Assembly: GCA_018334675.1 (NCBI GenBank)
Contig: JAGXLL010000002.1
Location: 62,001-126,000 of the forward strand
Origin: Bacteroidales bacterium
GTDB lineage: Bacteria; Bacteroidota; Bacteroidia; Bacteroidales; UBA12077
Length of the DNA stretch: 64,000 bases
Direction of reading: 5' to 3'
Below, one piece after another: positions 48,155-61,736 of this stretch. The position numbers and the translations under genes were made by a program. Position 1 is the stretch's first letter. Each line of letters begins with the position of its first letter. Below the pieces are notes generated by a model that was not told where the DNA came from, did not search any database, and saw only the letters and a program-made list of their open reading frames with translations.

Positions 48155-49300
48155 CTACTTCTTTGCTGCATTCTTTAAACTATTGAAGTATATTGAAAAT
48201 GGACGGTAAGCAAGATGCGACCATTTTGAAAAAGGTACTTCAATCATAAGCATTGGAAACAATACCATCAAATGAAAAACATACATATAATAAGTGGGAT
48301 TTGGCATGCCGTTTATCCTGAAAATATGTACAAGAATTCCGCTAATGGTTGTTAAGAATAACAAAATAAGAAACGTCCAGTCTGTATAGTGCGAAAATTT
48401 GCTCTTCTCGTTATTCTTCTTCAATCGAATTGCTGTAAAATAGATAATCCCAGCAGTTAACCCGAAGGTTGCATAATATCCCAGTAATCTCTGAGGATGC
48501 CACCAGTTATGGATTTCATCCGTCTGAAACCATTCAAGAAATCCGACAATCAGCACAAAGAGTGTCACATAACCCGACATCAGCAACCAGTGCATGATCC
48601 AATAGGTGACTGATTTTTTCTTATTATCCGGATTTTCTTCTTCTGTACTACATTTTTTAAACTGCCATTGGGTAGCAAAATGAAATATGAGTTTCCATAA
48701 TTCGGTAAAATAAAGTTTAAGGGGTACTTTAACCGACTTATCTTTGAGTATTACTTTTCTGTACATATTAAATACATTGGAAAGTAAGAAAAAAGATAAA
48801 AATCCGGCCATAATCCAGTCGCCTATTTCAATTGTCTTCCAGGGAGCAAAAGTATTCAGTTTTACACCCCCTTGTTCAGTAAGTGTAGTTTCCATGGGTC
48901 CGTGATAAAGCAGGAACAGGACTAAAACAACCGTAGCAAGAAGGACAATGGCTACCAACTCCCATATCTTGGAAGTATAAAACTTCTTTGACAGGCCGGT
49001 CCAGTCATATGCAGCTGTCAGATACCGACGCAACGACATCATCAACTCTCCCGGATTGGCTTCACGCGGACAGGTACTGCTGCATTCACCACAATAATAG
49101 CAGTTCCATGGATCCAGCGAACGCTGAATCTTGTCTTCCAGTCCTAAAACACTGGCGCGAATCATATTTCTTGGGAATGAGTTATCCGTATCAGACAAAG
49201 AGCATATGGCCGTGCAATTCCCACAGTTATAGCACATGCTTGTATCGAATGCCCCAAACTTCTTTAGAGTAACTGAAAAATCAGGGTTTAATATAGACAT
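48155..49300 (-). CDS. qmoC: QmoC-like membrane subunit (HdrC fused to cytochrome-b-like HdrE)
   Basis: The 381-residue protein starts with two [4Fe-4S] motifs: C23, C26, C29, C33 (CYNCGNCTAIC) and C67, C70, C73, C77 (CYYCGECSSTC). About six membrane helices follow from residue 113, including WIMHWLLMSGYVTL and HYTDWTFLILLFLTTISGILVHIF with candidate haem His. This fused layout is that of QmoC, the quinone-interacting subunit of the Qmo complex. It is last in the operon, 7 bases after the HdrA gene, and probably carries electrons between the cytoplasmic HdrA subunits and the quinone pool. Confidence 0.88.
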   Translation of the reverse strand: MSILNPDFSVTLKKFGAFDTSMCYNCGNCTAICSLSDTDNSFPRNMIRASVLGLEDKIQRSLDPWNCYYCGECSSTCPREANPGELMMSLRRYLTAAYDWTGLSKKFYTSKIWELVAIVLLATVVLVLFLLYHGPMETTLTEQGGVKLNTFAPWKTIEIGDWIMAGFLSFFLLSNVFNMYRKVILKDKSVKVPLKLYFTELWKLIFHFATQWQFKKCSTEEENPDNKKKSVTYWIMHWLLMSGYVTLFVLIVGFLEWFQTDEIHNWWHPQRLLGYYATFGLTAGIIYFTAIRLKKNNEKSKFSHYTDWTFLILLFLTTISGILVHIFRINGMPNPTYYMYVFHLMVLFPMLMIEVPFSKWSHLAYRPFSIYFNSLKNAAKK

Positions 49301-49307
49301 CTTTCCA

Positions 49308-51530
49308 TTATTTTTTTAGTTCATATAAATAATACTCATCTTCGTTGATCTCTTCCGTATCCTTCACGAAGCCATATTTTCTCAACGACATTAAGTAATA
49401 CATTACATCTTCACTCGGGTGCTTCAACTCTGCAGCTATTTCAGGAATTGCTTTAGAACCTGATTCAAGTGATTGAAGTATTCTCTTGCTCATTTCAGGT
49501 AATGCATTTGCCAGTTTGTCTGCGTTATTGGTCACACCTTCAGCTGATTCGGCTTCTTTTGCCTGATGGTCTTCAATTAACCGGACATCTTTAACAAAAG
49601 CATCAATCATCCCTTCTATTTCCTCATTGGAGTAACCAACAATACTTATTGCATCAGAAGGACAAACGGGAGTACATGCTCCGCAACCTTTACACAAGGC
49701 TTTGTTTACTTTAGCTACAGTTTTCCCGTCCGCTTCCACTTTTTCAAATGCATTGTAACTGCAAAGTTCATCACACTTTCCGCACCATTCACAAAGATCA
49801 GTATCAACAGTTGCAATAATTGGCTCAAGCTCTATCTTTCCCGAGTTAATCAATGAATTGGCTTTTGCTGAAGCGGCTAAAGTTGAAGCCATGGTGCCCC
49901 TCACATTTTTAGGACTCTGGCAAGCACCGGCAATAAAAACACCATCAATTACAGTCTCTACAGGTCGGAGTTTTGTATGCACCTCATTATAAAATTTATC
50001 GCTTCCAATAGGAACTTTCAAAATTTCAGCAACACTTTGATCCTTTCTTTGAACCATTCCGGTAACCAATACAACCAGGTCGGCAGAGACTTCAATGTTT
50101 TCATTTTGTGTCAGTGCATCCTGAACGGTTATTTTAGTTTGTTCACCTCTCTTTTCTACTTCAGGAAATGCTCCTTCAAAAAACTGGAGGTAAATATCCC
50201 CTTGTCTCGAAGAGTCGGTAAAGCATGTTTCCTGTTTTCCATAGGTTCTGATGCCCCTTGTAATATGGAAATTTCTGACTTCAGGATATTTGTTCTTTAC
50301 ATTCAATGCCGACTGAATAGCAGAGGTACAACAATAACGCGAACAATGTTTGTTGTCCCCATCAGGCTGGCGACTACCAACACAATATATGTAGGCAATA
50401 TCCCGGATCTTCTTTCCTTTGTATTCAAGCGTTCCATTGCTCATATCAAGTAAGCGGCGGAATTGCTGAAGAGTAATCACATTGTCTACAGTTTTATATC
50501 CAAACTCACCCTCCTCAGGTTCATACGGGTCAAACCCGGTATTAAGAAGGATAGCACCCGCATTGAAAGTAATATGCTCCACTTCCTGATCAAGATCGAT
50601 TTTTCCGTCACAGATTTTTTGGCACGCTCCACACTTATTACACAATTCCATATCAATTACAGGACTTTCCGGATAGGCTTCCCTGTAATTTTTATAGATC
50701 GCTTTGCGTTTGGTGAGCCCAAAATTGAATTCATCCTCCACTTCAAGCGGGCAGGCTTTCAATACCTGATCGAGAAAATCGTCGTCGCATTTTCCAAAGA
50801 CATACCGGGGTGTTATCTTAACACCTAACTCGAAATTACCAATGTTCCCATTTAAAGATTCAACCTCTGCTCCTGTAAAGAGTGTAATGTCATCGCGTTC
50901 TTTAATTTGTTTATAAAGTCGCTCAACAAGATTTTTCCCTTCCTCGTTTGTTGGAAATAAATGACCCCACTGAGCTGTTCTTCCTCCTACAAAGTGATCT
51001 TTCTCGATCAGATACACCTGACTTCCCTGGTCAGCCAGTTCAATGGCTGAACGCATTCCGGAAATCCCTGCACCAATAACAGCGGCAACGTTTTTTGCTT
51101 CAATTTCAATAGGTTGTAAACTTTGAGACATTCTGACCTTTGAGATAGCCGCTCTTATAATACGTACCGCCTTATCCGTTGCATCATCGGTACGGTCGGA
51201 ATGAGCCCATGAGCATTGCTCCCGGATGTTTGCATGGACATAGTTGTATTGGTTTAGCCCGGCCCTCTTTGCCACATCCCTGAAAGTGAGCAAGTGCAGC
51301 TTAGGAGAACAGGATGCTACCACCATACCATCCAGATCGTTTTCAATGATCTTTTCAATGATTTCAACCTGGGCTGAATCGGAACAAGTAAACATGGTTG
51401 TTTTCACTAACTGAACACCAGGTTCATTTTCAACAACTTTTGCTACTTTTTCCACCTCTACATAATCGGAAATATTTCCGCCGCAATAGCAGATGAATAC
51501 GCCTATTTTTTCTTTATGATCTTTTTTCAT
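49308..51530 (-). CDS. hdrA: HdrA-like FAD/iron-sulfur protein with C-terminal winged-helix-like extension
   Basis: The 740-residue protein has an HdrA N-terminal domain (1 to about 130: IGVFICYCGGNI, SCSPKLHLLTFRDVAKRAG). The FAD-binding motif GAGISGMRSAIELA starts at 153. A cluster lies at C297-C300-C303-C307, the HdrA-type CVGSRQ...HCSRYCC region at 383-401, and a C-terminal ferredoxin domain at C580, C583, C586, C590 and C613, C616, C619, C623. Residues about 676-740 look like a winged helix (SKRILQSLESGSKAIPEIAA). HdrB-type CCG domains are absent. The gene overlaps the previous one by 4 bases and has AGGAGG before its start. Confidence 0.88.
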   Translation of the reverse strand: MKKDHKEKIGVFICYCGGNISDYVEVEKVAKVVENEPGVQLVKTTMFTCSDSAQVEIIEKIIENDLDGMVVASCSPKLHLLTFRDVAKRAGLNQYNYVHANIREQCSWAHSDRTDDATDKAVRIIRAAISKVRMSQSLQPIEIEAKNVAAVIGAGISGMRSAIELADQGSQVYLIEKDHFVGGRTAQWGHLFPTNEEGKNLVERLYKQIKERDDITLFTGAEVESLNGNIGNFELGVKITPRYVFGKCDDDFLDQVLKACPLEVEDEFNFGLTKRKAIYKNYREAYPESPVIDMELCNKCGACQKICDGKIDLDQEVEHITFNAGAILLNTGFDPYEPEEGEFGYKTVDNVITLQQFRRLLDMSNGTLEYKGKKIRDIAYIYCVGSRQPDGDNKHCSRYCCTSAIQSALNVKNKYPEVRNFHITRGIRTYGKQETCFTDSSRQGDIYLQFFEGAFPEVEKRGEQTKITVQDALTQNENIEVSADLVVLVTGMVQRKDQSVAEILKVPIGSDKFYNEVHTKLRPVETVIDGVFIAGACQSPKNVRGTMASTLAASAKANSLINSGKIELEPIIATVDTDLCEWCGKCDELCSYNAFEKVEADGKTVAKVNKALCKGCGACTPVCPSDAISIVGYSNEEIEGMIDAFVKDVRLIEDHQAKEAESAEGVTNNADKLANALPEMSKRILQSLESGSKAIPEIAAELKHPSEDVMYYLMSLRKYGFVKDTEEINEDEYYLYELKK

Positions 51531-54235
51531 TTCAACCTCCTTAAATAACTTGCTGCTTCAGAAGCCGCACCGCCTGCAGAAAGAATGGTATCCGGAATAT
51601 CTTTGGGACCGGAGGCTGTTCCTGCGACAAATACTCCATCTATATTTGTTGAAGCGGGACTGGCTAATTCATCAACTTGTTTGACATAATTGAATCTATC
51701 CAGCTCAATGGATTTTTCTGAAAACATGCCGGAGACATCCATATTCGGAAGAGCCCCAACAGACAGCACAGTTAAATCATGTTTGGCTTCCTTTACTTTA
51801 CCTTCCAGGACATCTTCATATCTCAATATCATATCTCCATTTTCGCTTTCCTTCACTTTCGCAACTTTTCCTTTGACAAAGTTGACCCCCATCCCTTTGG
51901 CTCGTTGATAGAATTCTTCGAAACCTTTTCCGAATGATCTGATATTCATGTAATAAATTGTAATATCGGCAAGAGGCAATGCGCCCATCAATAATTGAGC
52001 TTGTTTGATGGAATACATACAACAGATTTGTGAGCAAATCGGGTTTCCAACGGTTTCATCCCTTGATCCGGCACATAGTATGTAAGCAATGTTATCAGGA
52101 ATCCTTCCGTCCGATGGTCTTAGAACTGTGTTGTAAGGACGGGTGGGAACCAAATGTCGTTCCATATCCATTGCTGTTATCACATTGGATATTTTTCCTC
52201 CACCGTAGTTGGGGAGATTTTCCTTGGGGAAGAGCTTAAATCCGGTGGAAACAATAACAGATTTTGCATCAACAGAAAGCTCTTCTTCCTTTTGAGAAAA
52301 ATCAATGGCATCGGCAGGGCATGCAGAAACGCATTGATGACATTCCCTGCAAATATTACAATCCAGACACCTGCTGGCATTCAGGAAAGCTTCTTCCTCT
52401 GAATAGGTGGCTTCAATCTCTTCAAAATCTTTAATCCTTTCTTCGGCGGATCTTTCATATGCCATTACAGGCATTACCGATGGCTGATTTTCCATCCGGG
52501 CCAGCACTTCTTCCTTACTGGCAGGGGGTAATCTGTGATCAAATTCATGATCCGCCAGGTTTTCCCCCTGCAAATATTTATCAATAAAGAAGGCGGCTCG
52601 TTTCCCTTGCCCGGCTGCTTCAATAATTGATGAAGCACCTGTAACCACGTCACCACCGGCAAAAATATGTGCCTGGGAAGTTTGCAGGGTTTCAGAATTC
52701 ACATTGATGGTACCGTTCTTATTCAATTCCAGTTCATTGGTGAAAGTAGAGGTTGTGGCAAGCAAACCGATTGAGGTAATTGCCAGCTCTGCTTTTATAA
52801 CGTGTTCCGAACCTTTTATCTCTTCAGGCCTTCTTCTTCCACTTGCATCAGGTTCACCCAGTTTCATCCTGACACACTTCACTGCATTTAATTTTCCGTT
52901 TTCTCCTATGAATTCGACAGGATTCTTTAGAAACTGGAATTCAATACCTTCATCTTCTGCTTCTTTTACTTCCACATCAGCAGCCGGCATTTGATAACGG
53001 TCACGGCGGTATACAACTATTACTTTCTCCGCTCCCAATCTTTTTATTGTTCTGGCTGAGTCCATAGCAACATTTCCTCCACCAAAAACCAATACCGTTT
53101 TACCTGAAACATCCATCTTATCTCCCTTGTTTACACTTTTCAGGAAAGATAAACAGCACAATATACCCTCAAGGTCCTTTCCTTTGAGGTCAAATTTCAC
53201 GGTTTCATGCGTACCGACAGAAACATAAATTGCATCAAACCCCTGGCTTTTAAGCTCTTCAAAATTTTCCACAACATGATTCACTTCATATTCAACACCA
53301 AGAGCCGTAATGTTCTTTATATCTCTTTCTACAATATTATTGGGAAGGCGAAAAGAAGGAATGGATGATTTTAACATACCACCCAATTCGCTGTCGCCCT
53401 CGAATATTTTAACGCTATGTCCGGATTTTGCCAGATGATAAGCAGCTGTCAAACCTGAAGGTCCTGACCCGATAACAGCCACCTTTTTACCAGACTGAGC
53501 TTCAATATCTTCAAATTTGGGTTCTGAATATTTATTGTAATAATAATCAGAAAAAAATCTTTTGATGCGACGAATAGTTACGGGTTCGTCTTTATCTTTT
53601 CTTGTACATTCTCCTTCACAGGGTGCATAACAAGCCCTTCCGAGTGAACCGGGCAGTGGAATATCCTCCAGGTGAAGATTCATAGCTTCTTCATACAATC
53701 CATTCCGGACAAGAGAAACATAGCCATGTGCTTTTACTCCACCCGGGCAGGTGGTAATACAGGGAGAAGAGGTTCCGTTTCTTTGTATAGTGGCTACCTT
53801 AGGACTTGCAGTTGTAAATGGGATAAATGCTGTTTTCTTGGCAACAAATCCATAATTATAAGGATCTTCGTTATATTCAGGGCAACTCACTTCACATTCG
53901 CTACACCCTGTACAGATAGATTCATTGACGTATCTTGGATTCTTAATGATGTTTGCATTAAATCCATTTCCGTTTTTGGCTATACCTTGAACTTCGCTGT
54001 AAGTTAAAAGAGTTATATTGGGATGGCGGCTTGTTTCAGACATTTTGGGTGTCGTAATGCAAGCAGAGCAGTCAAGTGTAGGAAATACTTTGCTCAGGTG
54101 GATCATTTTACCACCAATAGACAGGTCTTTTTCAACCAACAGCACTTTAAATCCCATTTTAGCGAGATTAAGAGAAGCTTCCTGACCTGCTACACCGCCT
54201 CCAATAATTAGCGAATCGTATTTGTTATTATCCAT
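51527..54235 (-). CDS. HdrA split by an inserted NfnB/GltD-like NAD(P)H oxidoreductase module
   Basis: I start at Met 54235 (MDNNKYDSLI), just before the FAD motif; a start at 54268 would overlap the previous gene by 41 bases. Of 902 residues, 1-130 are HdrA-like: GGGVAGQEAS, FPTLDCSACITTPKM and cluster C108-C111-C114-C118. Residues about 155-560 are GltD/NfnB-like: C159, C163, C202, C206, C210, then FAD motif GSGPSGLTAAYHLAK (256), and NADPH-type GGGNVAMDSARTIKRLG with YRRDR (385-413). Residues about 600-902 resume HdrA: six Cys over C623-C639, CAGSRD (721) and ICSQICCMYSIKQA (733). This would let NAD(P)H exchange electrons with the Hdr/Qmo-like complex. Confidence 0.87.
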   Translation of the reverse strand: MDNNKYDSLIIGGGVAGQEASLNLAKMGFKVLLVEKDLSIGGKMIHLSKVFPTLDCSACITTPKMSETSRHPNITLLTYSEVQGIAKNGNGFNANIIKNPRYVNESICTGCSECEVSCPEYNEDPYNYGFVAKKTAFIPFTTASPKVATIQRNGTSSPCITTCPGGVKAHGYVSLVRNGLYEEAMNLHLEDIPLPGSLGRACYAPCEGECTRKDKDEPVTIRRIKRFFSDYYYNKYSEPKFEDIEAQSGKKVAVIGSGPSGLTAAYHLAKSGHSVKIFEGDSELGGMLKSSIPSFRLPNNIVERDIKNITALGVEYEVNHVVENFEELKSQGFDAIYVSVGTHETVKFDLKGKDLEGILCCLSFLKSVNKGDKMDVSGKTVLVFGGGNVAMDSARTIKRLGAEKVIVVYRRDRYQMPAADVEVKEAEDEGIEFQFLKNPVEFIGENGKLNAVKCVRMKLGEPDASGRRRPEEIKGSEHVIKAELAITSIGLLATTSTFTNELELNKNGTINVNSETLQTSQAHIFAGGDVVTGASSIIEAAGQGKRAAFFIDKYLQGENLADHEFDHRLPPASKEEVLARMENQPSVMPVMAYERSAEERIKDFEEIEATYSEEEAFLNASRCLDCNICRECHQCVSACPADAIDFSQKEEELSVDAKSVIVSTGFKLFPKENLPNYGGGKISNVITAMDMERHLVPTRPYNTVLRPSDGRIPDNIAYILCAGSRDETVGNPICSQICCMYSIKQAQLLMGALPLADITIYYMNIRSFGKGFEEFYQRAKGMGVNFVKGKVAKVKESENGDMILRYEDVLEGKVKEAKHDLTVLSVGALPNMDVSGMFSEKSIELDRFNYVKQVDELASPASTNIDGVFVAGTASGPKDIPDTILSAGGAASEAASYLRRLK

Positions 54236-54653
54236 CTTTTTGTCCGGTTTCGTTTTTAATACTTCCAAGACCTGATAGGGTCTCAGAAAAACTTTTCATG
54301 TGGCCCACAAACGGATCAGCACAAACTGAACACAATGCAGCCATTTTAACTCTCGCCAGGTCAATTCCCTCCTCTTTCATTACTTGCTGTGCCTTCGATA
54401 TTGAATTGTTGGTTAACGCAGAGCAATCGGAACGGAATGCACAATCCGTTCCGTCGCTTGCGATAAAGACTCCGTCCATACCTTTGTGCAATGCTTTTAA
54501 AATCCAATTGGGTTTTACCGCACTTGTACAAGGTAAAGTAATGTTGTAAACACGAGGTGAATAATGCTTTTTGAGCAGACCGGCAAGATCAATAGCGGGA
54601 TCCGATATCTTTTCAGATGAAAATACAAGAATCCGTGGTTGATAGTCGCTCAT
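54228..54653 (-). CDS. MvhD/FlpD-like protein with partly lost cysteines
   Basis: The 141-residue protein follows the MvhD pattern: ILVFSSEKISDPAIDLAGLL, TLPCTSAVKPNWILKALHKGMDGVFIAS, DCAFRSDCSA, and FSETLSGLG. MvhD carries a [2Fe-2S] cluster in hydrogenase/Hdr electron transfer. The first Cys pair (usually CxxC in the FSCEWC segment) is replaced by SSEKIS, so the cluster may be missing or altered. Its stop overlaps the next start by 8 bases (ATGGATAA). It is the small partner of the two HdrA-like proteins. Confidence 0.75.
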   Translation of the reverse strand: MSDYQPRILVFSSEKISDPAIDLAGLLKKHYSPRVYNITLPCTSAVKPNWILKALHKGMDGVFIASDGTDCAFRSDCSALTNNSISKAQQVMKEEGIDLARVKMAALCSVCADPFVGHMKSFSETLSGLGSIKNETGQKDG

Positions 54654-54671: not shown

Positions 54672-54923
54672 TTAATTTTTCTTTAAATACAATGTGAAAT
54701 ATCCGGCCTCTTCAAAGTCACCTAAATATTCGTGTCCTTGTTTCTTTGCCCATCGGGGAACATCTCTTTTTGTTCCTGCATCGGAAGAGAGGATTTCCAT
54801 GATTCCCCCGCTTGGTACATCGGCAATTGCCTGTTTTACTGCTAAAAGTGGGCCAGGGCATGCAGTTCCTCTTGAATCGACTACTTTGTGAGATTCTAAT
54901 GCTTTTAATTCTTCAGTTGTCAT
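54672..54923 (-). CDS. tusA: TusA-family sulfur carrier
   Basis: The 83-residue protein carries VVDSRGTACPGPLLAVKQAI with the sulfur-binding Cys22 in the CPxP motif, a GTKRDVPRWAKKQGH segment and a final strand pattern of the two-layer TusA fold. TusA accepts persulfide sulfur and passes it to partner proteins. It lies between the DsrE-like and MvhD-like genes. A second TusA begins the operon at 60621-60851. Confidence 0.92.
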   Translation of the reverse strand: MTTEELKALESHKVVDSRGTACPGPLLAVKQAIADVPSGGIMEILSSDAGTKRDVPRWAKKQGHEYLGDFEEAGYFTLYLKKN

Positions 54924-54953: not shown

Positions 54954-55367
54954 TTATAGCGTAATATTGAGATCTGCACCAGATGCTCCTTCCAGGTATT
55001 CGCCGATACCTACGATTTCATCCACCAGATCGATAAAGTCTTCTTTATTTTCTCCACCTGCCACTTTTCCAGCCAGACTACATACATAAACATTTACTGA
55101 AGTCATATCCTTAGCCATTTCAAAAAATTCCGTCCATTTTGGCGTGGAAAACTGGTCGAGTGCCTGCTGAAATTTTTCCGCACTCTGGGCTGTATCCGCC
55201 ATACCGCTGACATTTCCATTCTGGCTTTTTACAAAAGCCTGACCGGCATTGACAAGGACATATACATCAACTTCCATATCCTCGGCAGCAGCCCCACTCA
55301 ATATAACTCCTGCATTGGTTAATTTATCTAATGAAGAAGTTGTTAATGCTAAAACTAATTTTGACAT
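54954..55367 (-). CDS. DsrE/DsrF-like protein
   Basis: The start is placed at Met 55367 (MSKLVLALTT), where the fold begins; the longer reading to 55448 runs into the rhodanese gene. The 137-residue alpha/beta protein (DsrE-like) has ALTTSSLDKLTNAGVILSGAA, MEVDVYVLVNAG and one Cys (Cys96 in VYVCSLAGK) near the position used for sulfur in DsrE/DsrE2 proteins. DsrE-type proteins take sulfur from TusA; here a TusA gene follows 30 bases downstream. Confidence 0.82.
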   Translation of the reverse strand: MSKLVLALTTSSLDKLTNAGVILSGAAAEDMEVDVYVLVNAGQAFVKSQNGNVSGMADTAQSAEKFQQALDQFSTPKWTEFFEMAKDMTSVNVYVCSLAGKVAGGENKEDFIDLVDEIVGIGEYLEGASGADLNITL

Positions 55368-55386: not shown

Positions 55387-55896
55387 TCAACCACCACATC
55401 CTCCTCCGGATGATTCTTCATTTTCAGGCGCAGCAGGTTGGGATTCATCCATTCCCTGTTCTACCCATTCCGGGTAAGCTTCTTGCCAATCAAACCAACT
55501 AAAATCCAGGAGATGACAGTCGGAATATTTGAGCAACTCCAGATTCTTGACAGCTAATGCTCCGCTTGCCATTTCATTACCAAATACCAGGGTTTTTAGC
55601 CTTCGATTTGAAAGTTTACCGGAAAACTCAAGCAACCCCCTGGGAATATGCATTGCAGAAGGAAAATGCCCAAGAATGTAATCGTATTCTGTCCGGCAGT
55701 CCACAATCTGGATGTTAACATTACTATCCAGCAATGCCCTGAATTGATCCATACCCATAAGAGAAATATCTTTCTTCGCTGTTTTTATCATTGCTTCAGG
55801 ACTTTCATATACCTTCTCCGTATCGAGCGGATTGCTGCAATTCCAAAAAAGGAACAGAAAAAGGAAGGCGGATATAAATAATTTTAAATTTTTCAT
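55387..55896 (-). CDS. Rhodanese-like lipoprotein lacking the active Cys but ending GGGCGG
   Basis: The 169-residue protein has a lipoprotein signal with lipobox-like FWNC (Cys20). A rhodanese domain covers about 45-150 (IQIVDCRTEYDYILGHFPSAMHIPRGLLEF). The catalytic loop reads LVFGNEMASGA, with Gly106 where the active Cys would be, so sulfur transfer in the usual way is unlikely. The tail ESSGGGCGG places Cys167 in GGCGG at the very C-terminus, as in SoxY carriers. The paralogous gene at 58863 has the same tail with an intact active site. Confidence 0.85.
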   Translation of the reverse strand: MKNLKLFISAFLFLFLFWNCSNPLDTEKVYESPEAMIKTAKKDISLMGMDQFRALLDSNVNIQIVDCRTEYDYILGHFPSAMHIPRGLLEFSGKLSNRRLKTLVFGNEMASGALAVKNLELLKYSDCHLLDFSWFDWQEAYPEWVEQGMDESQPAAPENEESSGGGCGG

Positions 55897-55903
55897 GCTT
55901 CTG

Positions 55904-56713
55904 TTAATTTAATTTCCACTCATTGTAAGCTCCATCGTAAACGGTTACATTGGAATACCCCAGCACTGAATTAAGGGCAAGAAATACGATACCGGCACGT
56001 GCACTTGTAGCGCAATAGAGAATCACTTCCTTATCCTTTGTGATCCCTGCACCCTTGAAAAGTTTGGCAAGTTCTTCCTTTGATTTCAATTTATCGCTAT
56101 CAGTAAGGACATTTTTATACTCCAGGTTTCTTGCGCCATTGATATGCCCTTCGTTAAATTCCTTATCGCTTCGCACGTCCAAAAGAGCCGCGCTGCTGAG
56201 CTTTGATTTTACATAACCCATGTCAGCAAAAATTGCCTTATTTACCTTAGGAGTAAAAGAAGTGGCTTGAACTTTGGTACCGCCATTGGTAACCGGCCCT
56301 CTTGCAGACCTCCAGGCTCTCATGTGCCCATCCATAATATTCACATCGGAAAAACCAAGATATTTGAGAACCCAATAAAGTCTTCCGGAACCAATGCCTG
56401 AACCACTATCATAAATAATGATTTTCTTGTCAGGAGAAATCCCTTTTCCTCCCAGAAGAGTGGCAAGTTCAGAAGAACCTTTCAATATGCCTTTAGGTTC
56501 ACCATCTTTTTCAAGTGTACCCATTGGTACATTTACTGCACCCCTGATATGCACCTTTGCATAATCACTTGCACCGCGAGCGGATACTACAATAGTATTG
56601 CTGCTTTTGAGCGCTTTCTTTGTATCGGCAGCAGAAATTAAATCCTGCGCCATGGAAGCCTGAGAGAATATAAGCATGAAAACCAGGCTGAATAAAATAC
56701 GTTGTGTCTTCAT
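55904..56713 (-). CDS. Secreted tandem-rhodanese sulfurtransferase
   Basis: The 269-residue protein has a signal peptide ending ASMAQ (residue 23) and two rhodanese domains (about 25-140, 155-269). The N-terminal domain has YDSGSGIGSG in place of a Cys loop and is inactive by sequence. The C-terminal one has ILYCATSARAG with Cys234 and LLDVRSDKEFNEGHINGA. This layout is that of SseA/TST-type sulfurtransferases, here periplasmic. It could move sulfane sulfur between small thiols and the GGCGG carriers beside it (7 bases upstream of the 55387 gene). Confidence 0.88.
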   Translation of the reverse strand: MKTQRILFSLVFMLIFSQASMAQDLISAADTKKALKSSNTIVVSARGASDYAKVHIRGAVNVPMGTLEKDGEPKGILKGSSELATLLGGKGISPDKKIIIYDSGSGIGSGRLYWVLKYLGFSDVNIMDGHMRAWRSARGPVTNGGTKVQATSFTPKVNKAIFADMGYVKSKLSSAALLDVRSDKEFNEGHINGARNLEYKNVLTDSDKLKSKEELAKLFKGAGITKDKEVILYCATSARAGIVFLALNSVLGYSNVTVYDGAYNEWKLN

Positions 56714-56761
56714 AATCTTCTTTCTTTTTATTTATTAATAATGCAGGCAAACAGCCTATTG

Positions 56762-57793
56762 CTAAAAAATAACCTGGGCCTGAATAACGAACTGATCGTT
56801 GGGCACCTCATCATCTCCCTCAGCCCTGTAGCGATAGTTCAACTGCAAGCGGGTCCAGTCGTTCATAAAGTAGTTCATCCCATATGTTAACACGGTTTCC
56901 GTATTGTTATCAATCGAAACATCCGAGTCATAAGCCTCATACTTCAGAACAGGCTGAATACTCCATTCAGTCATATACATAGCCTGCACAAAGTAGCCAT
57001 TCCGGGTAACGCCACCGGTATGGTATTCAATAGGCGTTCCGTCACAACCTCCACCGGTGGTATAATCTCCGGTATCGTCCCCCCAGAGGTACTCACCCTG
57101 GAGAAGAAAATTACCCAGTGTGAGTTGCAGCTCACCGCCCAAGCGGGTTTTTGTATTGTCGGATTCAGGACCTGTCATACCATAAGCAAAACTTCCTCCC
57201 ACCTGAAGTTGCTCAATGGGAGAAAACGTGAGGCGGCTCTTGAGACTCTTTTCTTTATTCTCATCCTTAAACCCCATTTTATAATCGTTCATGAAAGCGA
57301 TGTAATAATTTATCCTGGCGTCCATCAGTTTTCCGGAGAGCATCACTCCCAGGTCCCGTTGGGGTGCTGCCAGCTCATTAACCACCTTTGAACGATATAC
57401 GGTGTGTAAGCTTTGACAAGCCGTGTTTTGTTCCAGACTGAGGGGAGATTTGAACTGTCCGACGGAGGCATTTAACCAATCAAACCTATTGTAGGTGATG
57501 AATGCATCGAGAACATAGGGAGAACCAGGTTTAAACCTGGAAAAATCAACCATTAAATAATAACTAATGTCATAAGGGATATTCCCAAGTACACCCAACC
57601 TGGCACGATTGAAAGTAAAACTGTTGCTATTGCCTCCATCCGTTGTTTGTGCGTATTCCCACTGAGGTTGGAGATAACCTGCAATGTTCACACCTTCGGA
57701 AGAAGCTTCCATACATCCTTGCCCATTGGCCACCTGTAATGCAAACAGAGACGCTACAAACAGCAGGGCAACTCTTATTTTGTTTTTACGCAT
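56762..57793 (-). CDS. Porin, phosphate-selective OprO/OprP type
   Basis: The 343-residue outer-membrane barrel has a signal peptide ending VANGQ (residue 25). Typical features are VNIAGYLQPQWEY, FTFNRARLGVLGNI, VGQFKSPLSLEQ and the terminal aromatic F. OprO/P porins conduct anions. Within this operon it may admit thiosulfate, tetrathionate or other anionic sulfur compounds, but that is inferred from context alone. Confidence 0.87.
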   Translation of the reverse strand: MRKNKIRVALLFVASLFALQVANGQGCMEASSEGVNIAGYLQPQWEYAQTTDGGNSNSFTFNRARLGVLGNIPYDISYYLMVDFSRFKPGSPYVLDAFITYNRFDWLNASVGQFKSPLSLEQNTACQSLHTVYRSKVVNELAAPQRDLGVMLSGKLMDARINYYIAFMNDYKMGFKDENKEKSLKSRLTFSPIEQLQVGGSFAYGMTGPESDNTKTRLGGELQLTLGNFLLQGEYLWGDDTGDYTTGGGCDGTPIEYHTGGVTRNGYFVQAMYMTEWSIQPVLKYEAYDSDVSIDNNTETVLTYGMNYFMNDWTRLQLNYRYRAEGDDEVPNDQFVIQAQVIF

Positions 57794-57856
57794 ATCTTAA
57801 TCGATTAGTCTGTAAAAGAAAAGCTGAGCAGGACATTCCTGCCCAGCTTAAAATAT

Positions 57857-58822
57857 TTATTCCAAAGGAAGATCAGTTGATGGCGTGGCCCATTTATGAC
57901 TTTCCAGGTTGTCATAAATCATTCCGTTCGCACCGAATTTTAAACTAAGCGCATCATACCCCAATACATACAAGTATGCTGAAATAACAGAGGATGTCTG
58001 GCCGGTCCAGCAATACGTAACAATGCTTTTTTCAGGGTCGAGTTTTTTGTATTCTCCACCAGCAAGGGTTAAAGGTTTAATTCGGTATGCACCGGAAATG
58101 TTACCATAATGCTCTACATCTTCAGCACCCCAATAGTTATTTATAAAATACGATCCGGGATCGCCTAATACATCACCGTTACCCACACCATTAAATCCGT
58201 TTGATAATAAAGCATTTACTCTTGCTTCAAGAATTTCTGCGCCGGTTCCGGTTTCTGTGATATCCGGGTCATCATATTCATCAGTAGCTTCGACAGTTGA
58301 GCCGGGTGAATCAATCCATCCATCATTTGCTGTATTGCCAACATTAGACTCCCAGGGAGCCGAAAGTGAGCTGTTCCAGCCACTCATACCCCACTTGAGC
58401 ACTTTGGCATCCGGATATCCACTGAGTCGCAAAGCAGCAACTGCATGCCCGGCAGTTTGTCCTGTGTAACACACTACAACAGGTGTTTTATCACCTGCAT
58501 CCTCAGCAGTGGCAAGTATATTTCCTAATGTCGAATTCACAGCTCCGGAAATGCTGCCGCCATTATAAGACTCACTGCTTCTGATATCAATGACATAATA
58601 ATTGCTCAGGTTTGCATTTACATCCTGGGCTGTTGTTATCCAACCATCCAATAGATTGTTTAAATCCAGGTTTTCTGACTGCAGATGGGATACCAATGTC
58701 TGGAATTCTTCATCCGTTTGACGATTTGGTTGTAAGTCATCATCAGAATCCTCCTTACAGGAAGTGAGGATGACTGCTGAAAACAAAATGGCTAAGACTG
58801 AAATTTTCATTAAATTTTTCAT
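57857..58822 (-). CDS. Lipoprotein with two active-looking rhodanese domains
   Basis: The 321-residue protein has lipobox LTSC (Cys22). The first rhodanese domain (about 55-150) contains YYVIDIRSSESYNGGSISGA and Cys118 in VVVCYTGQTAG. The second (about 195-310) contains Cys271 in VTYCWTGQTSS. Both catalytic loops use CxTGQT instead of CRxGxR, an unusual loop shared by the two domains. It likely sits in the outer membrane facing the periplasm or outside. Confidence 0.85.
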   Translation of the reverse strand: MKNLMKISVLAILFSAVILTSCKEDSDDDLQPNRQTDEEFQTLVSHLQSENLDLNNLLDGWITTAQDVNANLSNYYVIDIRSSESYNGGSISGAVNSTLGNILATAEDAGDKTPVVVCYTGQTAGHAVAALRLSGYPDAKVLKWGMSGWNSSLSAPWESNVGNTANDGWIDSPGSTVEATDEYDDPDITETGTGAEILEARVNALLSNGFNGVGNGDVLGDPGSYFINNYWGAEDVEHYGNISGAYRIKPLTLAGGEYKKLDPEKSIVTYCWTGQTSSVISAYLYVLGYDALSLKFGANGMIYDNLESHKWATPSTDLPLE

Positions 58823-58862
58823 AATACTTGGTTTAATCTATTAATAATCATTTCTTTAATAA

Positions 58863-59348
58863 TTAACCGCCACAACCTCCCGAATCCGCTTCTTTCTCAA
58901 TGGCGGGTTCACCACCCGAGAAAGCGATCCAGCCACCTTTCAGGTTAGCGACGTTTTTAAATCCCAGTTGCTTTAGAGTATGAGCAGCAAGAACTCCTCT
59001 TACACCGGATTGGCAATAGACGATAATCTGATCTTCCTTCTCCGGGGTATACATGAATTGTTCTTCCCAGAAAGAGTCATCAAATATCTGGAATTCCAGA
59101 ACACCGCGGGGAATAGAAACAGACCCGGGTATGTTTCCTGCTTCCTTCTCATCCGGTTGCCTCACATCCAATAAGAGGAACTCAGCTCCATTATCGATCA
59201 TCGACTTTAAGGAATCGACTCCTATTTCATGTATTTCTGAGCGAAGACCATCGGCTAACTCATTCCCATCTTCATAAATACCTGTACAACCGACAGATAA
59301 AAAGAATAGGAGTGCTATTAGTGATACATTAAGTTGCATATATTTCAT
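58863..59348 (-). CDS. Rhodanese lipoprotein with SoxY-like GGCGG C-terminus
   Basis: The 161-residue protein has a lipoprotein signal (LSVGC, Cys21). The rhodanese domain (about 38-148) contains LLLDVRQPDEKEAGNIPGSVSIPRGVLEF and active-site Cys112 in IVYCQSGVRG. The C-terminus EADSGGCGG holds Cys159 in a GGCGG motif on a short Glu/Lys-rich linker. SoxY uses this motif as a swinging arm to carry sulfur intermediates; combining it with a rhodanese domain and lipid anchor is not an arrangement I recall. It is a paralogue of the 55387 product (shared IPRGxLEF). Confidence 0.88.
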   Translation of the reverse strand: MKYMQLNVSLIALLFFLSVGCTGIYEDGNELADGLRSEIHEIGVDSLKSMIDNGAEFLLLDVRQPDEKEAGNIPGSVSIPRGVLEFQIFDDSFWEEQFMYTPEKEDQIIVYCQSGVRGVLAAHTLKQLGFKNVANLKGGWIAFSGGEPAIEKEADSGGCGG

Positions 59349-59396
59349 TTCTTTTGTGGTTTTGTTTGTAATAACCTTTAACCCCTAGATTGCAAA

Positions 59397-60611
59397 TTAA
59401 AAAGCGCTGAATTTCCCTGTCCGTTCATTCCATTTGACAAAAAGGTACCAGCTGAATATGACGAGAAGTACAATCAGCACCGCACCAGTGTAGCCAACAT
59501 AGTCCGGCAAATAACTCCTAAACTTCATGGTATGTGGCAGCAGGCCATCTACGCCGTCCACGATGAATGATTTGGAAAGGGGGGAAATTAAAAGAAAACC
59601 AATGGCAGACATCCACAGCTTCACCTGTCCTTCACCTACCCGCCATAGTGTACCGACAGCGCAACCACCGGCAACTGTCATTCCCAGTCCGAATATAAAC
59701 CCTCCGAAAAGACCTCTTAACCAGAAATGCCCAAAGACCCATGCCATCTCTCTTGCGCGCAAAGCGTTTTCGCCGGCGCCTATTCCAAAGTATTTAATGG
59801 CTGTAAACCCCACTAAGGTGATAAGCAATCCGGCCATCACACCCACGGAACCATCCGATTCCCCGGTCATAAATGGATCTCTGAAAGCTTTAACAATACA
59901 AAAACGTGACCTTTGGCATATCAGTCCCATCAGCAAGCCTGAAATGATGAACCAGGCCAGTACACCGTTGGTTCCAGCTACCTGGTACGCCAAACCAAAA
60001 ACACCAATGAAAATGATCCAGCCAAGATAAACCTGCCAGTTTCCCTTCTTCTCCGTAGCAGAAAGAAAGGTATAACTCTTGCCGGTACTTATTTTGGGAT
60101 ATTTCTCCATTTCCCACATAAGATACCTCAAGGCAACAATGGTCCCGGCAAATAAACCCATGGTGAAAATTATGGCACCTCCAGATAGAGCGGGTACACC
60201 ACTGAAGAATGAGCCAATTGTGCAACCCAAACCAATAGTTGCACCAACAGCCATTAAACCGCCACCAATAAATCCTTTCACCAATTCACCTTTGGGAGGG
60301 ATACGAAGAGCAAATTCCTTTGAAAATAAGGCTCCAACTAATGAACCAACTATAATGATTAAACATAATATACCATATAAACTGGCACTTGTTGGGGTGG
60401 CATTTTCAAAACCGGCAATTCCAACGCTTTTAAAAACATTCTCACCCCAGTTGTTTATGCCACCGCTCGCTCCCCATGGACTTTTAACAGCAAACAACAG
60501 GATATTTAACAAACCAAGCGTCACTCCACCGACCCATACAGGCCAGTGTTTTGAGAAAAAGGTGTTGTATAGTTCTCGCAATATACCCGGTTCTTTATTT
60601 TGTTGTTCCAT
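59397..60611 (-). CDS. YeeE/YedE (TsuA/SoxT-type) sulfur-compound permease
   Basis: The 404-residue inner-membrane protein has about ten helices. Conserved cysteines are Cys130 in TIGLGCTIG, Cys232 and Cys238 in CQRSRFC, and Cys317 in VAGGCAVGTLWR, the features of the thiosulfate transporter TsuA and of SoxT. It would bring thiosulfate or sulfane sulfur to the cytoplasm. It follows tusA by 9 bases (TusA partners are common) and has AGGAGG before the start. Confidence 0.9.
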   Translation of the reverse strand: MEQQNKEPGILRELYNTFFSKHWPVWVGGVTLGLLNILLFAVKSPWGASGGINNWGENVFKSVGIAGFENATPTSASLYGILCLIIIVGSLVGALFSKEFALRIPPKGELVKGFIGGGLMAVGATIGLGCTIGSFFSGVPALSGGAIIFTMGLFAGTIVALRYLMWEMEKYPKISTGKSYTFLSATEKKGNWQVYLGWIIFIGVFGLAYQVAGTNGVLAWFIISGLLMGLICQRSRFCIVKAFRDPFMTGESDGSVGVMAGLLITLVGFTAIKYFGIGAGENALRAREMAWVFGHFWLRGLFGGFIFGLGMTVAGGCAVGTLWRVGEGQVKLWMSAIGFLLISPLSKSFIVDGVDGLLPHTMKFRSYLPDYVGYTGAVLIVLLVIFSWYLFVKWNERTGKFSAF

Positions 60612-61012: not shown

Positions 61013-61040
61013 TAACCTGATTAATTTTAAATCTTTGTAT

Positions 61041-61736
61041 ATGAAGTATTTGAACGCACTAAACAGTTGCACTGTCAGTAATGCCAAATGCATCTGTTTT
61101 GATTTTCTGACTCCGGAGCAACAAGAATTAATCAATCAAAATTCAACAGATGTTCGATTTAAAAAGGGTGAAAATATATGCAAACATGGAACCTTATCTC
61201 CCCATATTATCTATTTAAAGTCAGGATTGGCCAAAATTTTCATGGAAGGTCTGAATGAGTCGTTAATATTAAAAATCATTCCCCCGGGGAATCTTATCGG
61301 GTTAACATCGCTGCGTGATGGCAATAATCGGTTTCATTATTCATCAATGGCTTACATGGATTCTGAGGCTACATTAATCGATATCGATGTATTCAGAAAA
61401 ATAATAAATGAAAACGCAAAATTTGCCTCTTCAATCATCGATATATTGTGTGAAAATTCCTTGCAAACGTTTGGCAGATTCTTTTGTTTTACCCACAAAC
61501 AACTCTATGGTCGCCTTGCAGATATTCTCTTATGTCTGTCTGAAAGAATATTTAAAGAGGATGAATTTGAACTCAATCTTTCCAGAAAGGAATTAGCAGA
61601 ACTAACAGGAATGTCCACAGAAAGTGTTATCCGGATGCTCAAAAAATTTAAAGACGACCAGATTATTCAGATGGAGGGTAAAAAAATCAGGATAACCGAT
61701 GCCCAATTACTGAAAAAAATCAGCGAATACGGTTAA
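61041..61736 (+). CDS. Crp/Fnr-family transcriptional regulator
   Basis: The 231-residue protein has an N-terminal cyclic-nucleotide-binding-like beta barrel (about 25-140: FKKGENICKHGT, YLKSGLAKIFMEG, PPGNLIGLTSL) and a C-terminal helix-turn-helix (about 180-203: LSRKELAELTGMSTESVIRMLKKF). N-terminal Cys10, Cys17 and Cys19 plus others (47, 137, 149, 165) could hold a cluster or sense thiols, though the spacing differs from FNR (C-x2-C-x5-C). Start at ATG 61041; a TTG six bases upstream is possible. Divergent from the operon, it is the likely controller. Confidence 0.85.
   Translation: MKYLNALNSCTVSNAKCICFDFLTPEQQELINQNSTDVRFKKGENICKHGTLSPHIIYLKSGLAKIFMEGLNESLILKIIPPGNLIGLTSLRDGNNRFHYSSMAYMDSEATLIDIDVFRKIINENAKFASSIIDILCENSLQTFGRFFCFTHKQLYGRLADILLCLSERIFKEDEFELNLSRKELAELTGMSTESVIRMLKKFKDDQIIQMEGKKIRITDAQLLKKISEYG

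Follow-up and report, generated by a model that had tools for sequence, protein, structure and literature searches.

An HdrA-type protein carrying a predicted NADP(H)-binding NfnB/StnC-like module in a conserved sulfur-carrier operon of Bacteroidales

Introduction

By what route might an anaerobic Bacteroidales bacterium move electrons among NADPH, sulfur, and the membrane? An operon in the window, the whole 64,000-nucleotide stretch of DNA analyzed here, points to an uncharacterised route among the three, and the question touches the Qmo complexes as well: whether QmoABC confurcates electrons, and with what second donor, is open (PMC10553843), and no role is known for type II Qmo complexes that lack Apr/Dsr (PMC10504309). 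A first-pass annotation of the window had read one gene as HdrA interrupted by a complete NfnB/GltD-like module, whereby one chain would link NAD(P)H to an Hdr/Qmo-like complex and could hold a flavin-based bifurcation or confurcation site.

Results

An NfnB/StnC-like module lies within the inserted ferredoxin of an HdrA-type protein

The gene and its inserted module are as follows.

51527..54235, minus strand: HdrA-NfnB fusion, 902 aa, in the QmoA position of the operon (profile and PDB searches, alignment, AlphaFold model)
52349..53782, minus strand: inserted NfnB/StnC-like module, residues 152-629, predicted to bind NADP(H) and FAD, with a permuted cluster helix at its C-terminal end (433-aa relatives; PDB 9bov_A and 8oh5_C)

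The span 51527-54235 given by the first-pass annotation is correct, and the coding strand is the minus strand; the plus-strand translation contains 29 stops. All the motifs claimed are present in the 902-aa protein: the FAD motif GGGVAGQEA (residues 12-20), DCSAC (55-59), and CTGCSECEVSC (108-118) in the first HdrA part; a second FAD motif, GSGPSGLTAA (256-265), the NADP motif GGGNVAMD (385-392), and YRRDR (409-413) in the module; and CAGSRD (721-726) and CSQICC (734-739) in the later HdrA part. Pfam/NCBIfam and PDB searches recovered both families in the order HdrA (1-152), NfnB-StnC-GltD (154-658), and HdrA (621-898), with E-values of 1e-146 to 1e-39, far above chance, and the HdrA family matches (NF040770, 5odc) flank the insert on either side.

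The module had been assigned to residues 155-560; it is indeed there, but alignment with insert-less 433-aa relatives sets its borders at approximately 152 and 629. At the junction, the relatives have the sequence NPRIAAI-DIEN-C-x2-C-x2-C-x3-C, and that of the window protein is SPKVATIQR-(module, about 152-629)-C-x2-C-x2-C-x3-C. We therefore place the module in the loop that joins the first and second halves of the ferredoxin normally inserted in HdrA. The HdrA part does not resume at CAGSRD and CSQICC, as had been proposed; it restarts well upstream, at C629-x2-C-x2-C-x3-C639, the second half of this ferredoxin, into which the last Cys helix of the module (RC623LDC626) continues directly. Compared with NfnB, the module shows a circular permutation, as the N-terminal helix of NfnB (E...RCLQC) aligns with the C-terminal end of the module; StnC/PRK12771 proteins share this permutation, with the RCLxC helix likewise at the C-terminal end. 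The GltD fold of bifurcating NfnB (NfnL), with its FAD and NADP(H) sites, was also found in the module (4ylf_B and 5jca_L, Z 37). The N-terminal cluster domain and the C-terminal two-cluster ferredoxin of the HdrA family are missing from the fusion chain and are found in its QmoB-like partner.

An AlphaFold2 model of the fusion, built from 41 sequences, gave the same division (mean pLDDT 80.8, pTM 0.75), with low-confidence stretches mainly at residues 45-62 and 122-147, the latter directly preceding the junction. When the model was compared with known structures by VIA-align, NfnABC and StnC were the best matches of the module (Z 46-48). For residues 153-639, the superposition on NfnABC 9bov_A covered 473 residues with Z 47.6 and an rmsd of 1.8, and that on StnC 8oh5_C gave Z 46.3. 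Residues 5-902 minus the insert matched the HdrA structures from M. marburgensis and M. thermolithotrophicus (Z ~35, ~400 residues), in keeping with the FAD/TrxR-like fold and inserted ferredoxin of the HdrA family.

Conserved cofactor residues distinguish the two flavin sites

The following residues of the fusion were assigned by alignment.

54059..54061, minus strand: Cys59, equivalent of HdrA Cys197
53561..53563, minus strand: Lys225, equivalent of StnC K170 (Glu in NfnB; alignment, 41 species)
53003..53008, minus strand: Arg410-Arg411 of YRRDR, predicted 2'-phosphate (NADP) site, invariant
52004..52006, minus strand: Lys744, corresponding to Lys409 of HdrA, which sits at the flavin N5 (role from PMC6405883)

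C59, K744, R296, K225, and R410-R411 are invariant in the HdrA-NfnB proteins of 41 species. In StnC, bifurcation has been lost and K170 ligates the cluster beside the FAD, where NfnB has a Glu (PMC10482914). The Glu ligand of the FAD-proximal [4Fe-4S] cluster of NfnB is replaced by Lys225 in 41/41 species, and a Lys occupies this position in every StnC-like and HdrA-inserted module compared. Because the Lys of non-bifurcating StnC stands in for the NfnB Glu, the inserted module looks like an NADP(H) port, and bifurcation at its flavin is disfavoured. R296, which corresponds to the N5 Arg of NfnB/StnC, is uninformative on this point, as StnC has the Arg too. The operon block also holds no NfnA partner with a [2Fe-2S] cluster and a-FAD among its conserved genes. 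The description of the module as a complete NfnB is thus not supported as it stood, but the proposal of a bifurcation site keeps some ground in the HdrA half: Lys409 of HdrA sits at the flavin N5 (PMC6405883), and since the bifurcation-linked Lys409 and Cys197 of M. thermolithotrophicus HdrA are kept there as K744 and C59, the HdrA FAD is the more plausible branch point. The RR pair suggests, short of proof, that the fusion prefers NADP over NAD; it is replaced by LE in a GltD-like protein of the same genome.

The fusion gene belongs to a conserved sulfur-carrier operon

Read 5' to 3' on the minus strand, the window operon encodes YeeE, two rhodaneses, a porin, two rhodaneses, DsrE, TusA, FlpD, HdrA-NfnB, a QmoB-like HdrA, and QmoC, the final genes overlapping or almost touching. 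The features other than the fusion are:

61035..61736, plus strand: Crp/Fnr-family regulator, divergent
59397..60611, minus strand: YeeE/YedE-type sulfur transporter
58863..59348, minus strand: rhodanese-domain protein
57857..58822, minus strand: rhodanese-domain protein
56762..57793, minus strand: Porin_O_P outer-membrane protein
55904..56713, minus strand: tandem rhodanese protein
55387..55896, minus strand: rhodanese-domain protein
54954..55367, minus strand: DsrE-like protein with an invariant Cys; start set by comparison with 137-aa relatives, at the matching Met (the longest ORF extends to 55448)
54672..54923, minus strand: TusA sulfur carrier; CPGP, C22 invariant
54228..54653, minus strand: FlpD/MvhD variant; usual CCxxC lost; C42, C71, C77, and C108-x2-C111 invariant; overlaps the start of the fusion gene
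49308..51530, minus strand: QmoB-like HdrA of 740 aa that has the N-terminal domain and the C-terminal ferredoxins but has lost the Cys197/Lys409 equivalents; 4-base overlap with the fusion gene
48155..49300, minus strand: QmoC-like membrane subunit; two [4Fe-4S] motifs, ~5 membrane helices, three invariant His

The claim that one chain joins an NAD(P)H-FAD module to the HdrA-type subunit of an Hdr/Qmo-like set holds, as a second HdrA and QmoC adjoin the fusion and the RR pair is invariant. None of 71 QmoB-like proteins has a Cys at the Cys197 position or a Lys at the Lys409 position; the Cys residues of the N-terminal cluster domain are invariant and those of the C-terminal ferredoxins nearly all so. 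Chadwick et al. take such a complementary pattern in tandem or fused HdrA proteins as a heterodimer (PMC9012536). Given the complementary cofactor residues of the two chains, HdrA-NfnB and the QmoB-like HdrA therefore probably form a heterodimer. All eight cluster Cys are conserved in QmoC, and the window protein scores 195.9 bits, under the curated cut-off of 300. TusA and DsrE each keep one Cys across all members aligned. Of 72 aligned sequences, one of them an ordinary MvhD taken for comparison, at least 70 retain the FlpD Cys set; this new invariant set, seen in the window and ~70 relatives, perhaps marks a different cluster or a sulfur site. Ahead of the sulfur operon, the region 55387-60611 holds four rhodanese proteins, two of them with a GGCGG end, together with the porin and the YeeE transporter.

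A scan of 84,980 species genomes found the fusion at 80 loci in ~80 species. That the gene might be an assembly artefact, a possibility raised beforehand, is ruled out by these loci, which come from independent genomes and include one complete chromosome (Petrimonas sp. IBARAKI). The order DsrE - TusA - FlpD - HdrA-NfnB - QmoB-like HdrA - QmoC is nearly constant, often with overlapping starts: FlpD lies immediately upstream of the fusion in 67/70 loci with room and DsrE within 2.5 kb in 66/70, and the QmoB-like gene follows immediately in 71/74 and QmoC in 62/63. TusA was found at 58/70 loci, a count from which the simple ORF caller may have missed some. An apparent TusA-FlpD fusion at one locus (L114, a 243-aa TusA match) is actually TusA behind an upstream regulator-like ORF. 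The carriers are mainly Bacteroidales (Petrimonas, Proteiniphilum, Paludibacter, Mariniphaga, Draconibacterium, and Marinifilum), with a few Acidobacteriota/Aminicenantes, Spirochaetota, Myxococcota, and Actinomycetota.

A twin operon lacks the inserted module

Sister operons with the same genes encode an insert-less HdrA of 430-460 aa and serve as a natural control. Among 393 genomes of the order, ~50 have the insert-less form (at least ~60% identity) and 12 have the fusion. At 30 insert-less loci, which are short, FlpD was present in 30/30, the QmoB-like gene in 29/30, and TusA and DsrE in 25/30 each; the winged-helix tail of the QmoB-like protein is a separate gene there. The module would thus be an optional port, the complex being present without it as well. 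Two genomes hold both forms, and in one of them (G722) the two operons lie ~12 kb apart on a single contig; the other is G757. One further insert-less QmoA-like copy (L137, genome G050) carries an in-frame TAG that could reflect decay or a sequencing error. The TusA/DsrE/FlpD operon and this twin, the most telling evidence, were missing from the first-pass annotation.

A quick core tree groups the insert-less proteins in one clade (support 100) nested among the insert carriers; the inserted modules form a single clade (100). An AU test did not reject a single clade of insert carriers (p 0.232), and the data therefore fit one switch, gain or loss of the insert alike.

AprA, DsrA, and type I Qmo in operon carriers

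We detected no DsrA in the window's genome or in 12 other operon carriers, and no AprA above the cut-off in the window's genome or in 10 of these 12. The window's genome, Petrimonas, G005, and G048 carry the operon and lack AprA, and G007, G008, and G009 have AprA with no trace of the operon. True aprA (740-915 bits, above the cut-off) was seen in 17 of 117 relatives, all Bacteroidales. Two close relatives (G013 and G014), both among the 12 carriers searched for DsrA, have a separate aprB-aprA-qmoABC operon in addition to the window-type operon, and its QmoAB form a clade apart from the window-type proteins even within one genome. AprAB or DsrAB is rejected as the partner, given these negative searches and the fact that aprA, where it accompanies the operon in these two relatives, has its own qmoABC. 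The separate operon and clade therefore point to the window complex as a paralogous, probably type-II-like Qmo, with sulfur carriers replacing AprAB.

Discussion

We assign a probability of roughly one half to the reading that the fusion is the NADP(H)-accepting flavoprotein subunit of a type-II-Qmo-like membrane complex exchanging electrons among NADP(H), menaquinone, and the sulfane sulfur of TusA/DsrE. The complex would consist of the FlpD variant, HdrA-NfnB, the QmoB-like HdrA, and QmoC. NADPH would reduce the FAD of the StnC-like module, and single electrons would pass through the module clusters to the HdrA ferredoxin, the second half of which follows the module without a break, and reach the HdrA FAD, the sole site that keeps the bifurcation-type Lys and Cys. 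There they could be split, one branch leading to QmoC and menaquinone and the other, via the QmoB-like partner and the FlpD variant, to persulfide sulfur on TusA/DsrE. On standard potentials, NADPH reduces sulfur by ~50 mV only and menaquinol cannot, which counts against the quinone branch. A point against the reading as a whole is that the operon encodes neither an HdrB-type CCG subunit nor any other sulfur active site of a known kind.

The net direction is most likely reduction of sulfur to sulfide, judging from the carriers: black colonies with sulfide yielded Petrimonas sp. IBARAKI, which has the operon, and P. sulfuriphila, its relative at the 99% level by 16S, forms H2S from S0 (PMC5940944); the TusA and DsrE Cys are also conserved. 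The opposite direction we regard as unlikely: rhodaneses, TusA, and DsrE would relay the electrons of sulfane sulfur or sulfide to the complex, which would split them between menaquinone and NADP+ as part of sulfur oxidation or disproportionation, with AprAB-QmoABC taking part in some species. YeeE, the four rhodaneses, TusA, and DsrE do resemble the import and relay genes of oxidisers and of the YTD cluster, and two of the closest relatives have aprBA-qmoABC but no detectable dsrA, which would agree with a life style of oxidation or disproportionation and counts against the reductive reading; however, AprA and the operon do not co-occur consistently, as the genomes listed above show, and a near kin of one carrier reduces sulfur.

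The NADPH-to-menaquinone drop of ~250 mV would be enough to drive ferredoxin reduction, and with the conserved HdrA-type site residues and a quinone subunit the complex could be a Fix-like, flavin-based bifurcating NADPH:menaquinone/ferredoxin oxidoreductase for which TusA/DsrE merely supply Fe-S or sulfur for cofactors. This is quite unlikely, as the sulfur carriers are tied to the operon with or without the NADPH module and a dedicated DsrE/TusA pair would be needless for generic Fe-S supply. Very doubtful, too, is a simple non-bifurcating NADPH:menaquinone dehydrogenase with the HdrA FAD as a plain relay: the reaction is downhill and the module is of the non-bifurcating StnC kind, yet the conserved sulfur carriers and the Lys/Cys signature of the HdrA half would be left unexplained. 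Returning to the NADPH-linked reductive reading, that it represents a new sulfur-respiratory complex, Qmo-like and menaquinone-linked, with NADPH hard-wired as second carrier, the HdrA FAD as its branch point, and protein-bound persulfide as its substrate, is a tentative and somewhat unlikely proposal. If true, it would give Qmo-type complexes their missing second partner and Bacteroidales a dedicated sulfur-reducing energy system without DsrAB.

The operon offers a concrete candidate gene set for sulfur reduction in fermentative Bacteroidales such as Petrimonas, where DsrA was undetected, and a Qmo-like complex with a predicted NADP(H) port in one subunit, found in ~80 species and matched by a port-less relative, makes the Qmo question directly testable. 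The HdrA-NfnB fusion itself is already known from HdrL (PMC2702500) and ANME-1 HdrA9-11 (PMC9012536). A search of the searchable literature returned no description of a DsrE-TusA-FlpD-HdrA-NfnB-QmoC operon. By that measure, the novelty lies in the DsrE-TusA-FlpD-HdrA-NfnB-QmoB-QmoC operon and how widely it occurs, in its twin without the insert, in the variant FlpD, and in the Lys signature, by which the inserted module is placed in the non-bifurcating type.

Comparison with known systems

In HdrL of Desulfobacterium autotrophicum HRM2, a glutamate-synthase-like domain with an NADH site is joined to HdrA; every hdrL lies beside mvhD (FlpD), and the authors propose electron transfer from NADH to sulfite (PMC2702500). 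By this description, it shares with our fusion the HdrA, the NAD(P)H-site domain, and the adjoining mvhD/FlpD; however, HdrL1 adjoins dsrABC, and the accessible part of the source describes no QmoC/TusA/DsrE operon. ANME-1 HdrA9, 10, and 11 are described as carrying a ~500-aa NfnB-like insertion in the HdrA ferredoxin domain, a site as in the fusion, but they belong to archaeal methane metabolism, and the available part of the source describes no TusA/DsrE/QmoC operon there (PMC9012536).

The window's own genome encodes a paralogue on contig C90 (L009:8805-13259), a 1484-aa HdrA-NfnB-HdrA with 39% identity. It has the NfnB module in the same HdrA loop and both HdrA types in a single chain, but it is clustered with hdrC, hdrB, metF, metV, and mvhD (C1 metabolism), an arrangement that recalls the Moorella MetFV-HdrABC complex, yet with an NfnB module. 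In a random sample of 395 genomes of the phylum, the metF-type fusion alone was found, in two genomes besides the window's own.

The large subunit of StnC/NfnABC (8oh5, 9bov) shares with the fusion the permuted GltD/NfnB module with a Lys cluster ligand. StnC is an NADPH port for another, bifurcating unit, fused to a NuoG-like protein and feeding a HydBC-like FMN, whereas the module of the fusion sits inside HdrA. The sHdr sulfur-oxidation system combines HdrB-type CCG subunits and HdrA with TusA and DsrE; the core block here is without HdrB, an HdrB-like gene lying near the fusion in just 3/80 loci. In the YTD cluster of disproportionators, yedE, tusA, dsrE, and chp are in synteny; the window has YeeE, TusA, and DsrE, parted by rhodaneses.

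In type II Qmo, QmoAB are nearer to HdrA than to type I and occur with or without Dsr/Apr, their function being stated as open; the accessible part of the source mentions neither an insert nor a sulfur-carrier operon (PMC10504309). The window complex, which we compare with type II by description only, has two HdrA-type proteins plus QmoC, its QmoA-like chain being near HdrA. With type I QmoABC, it shares the HdrA-type pair and the HdrC/cytochrome-b-type QmoC; type I has no NfnB insert and stands alongside aprBA, and the window complex has FlpD, TusA, and DsrE instead.
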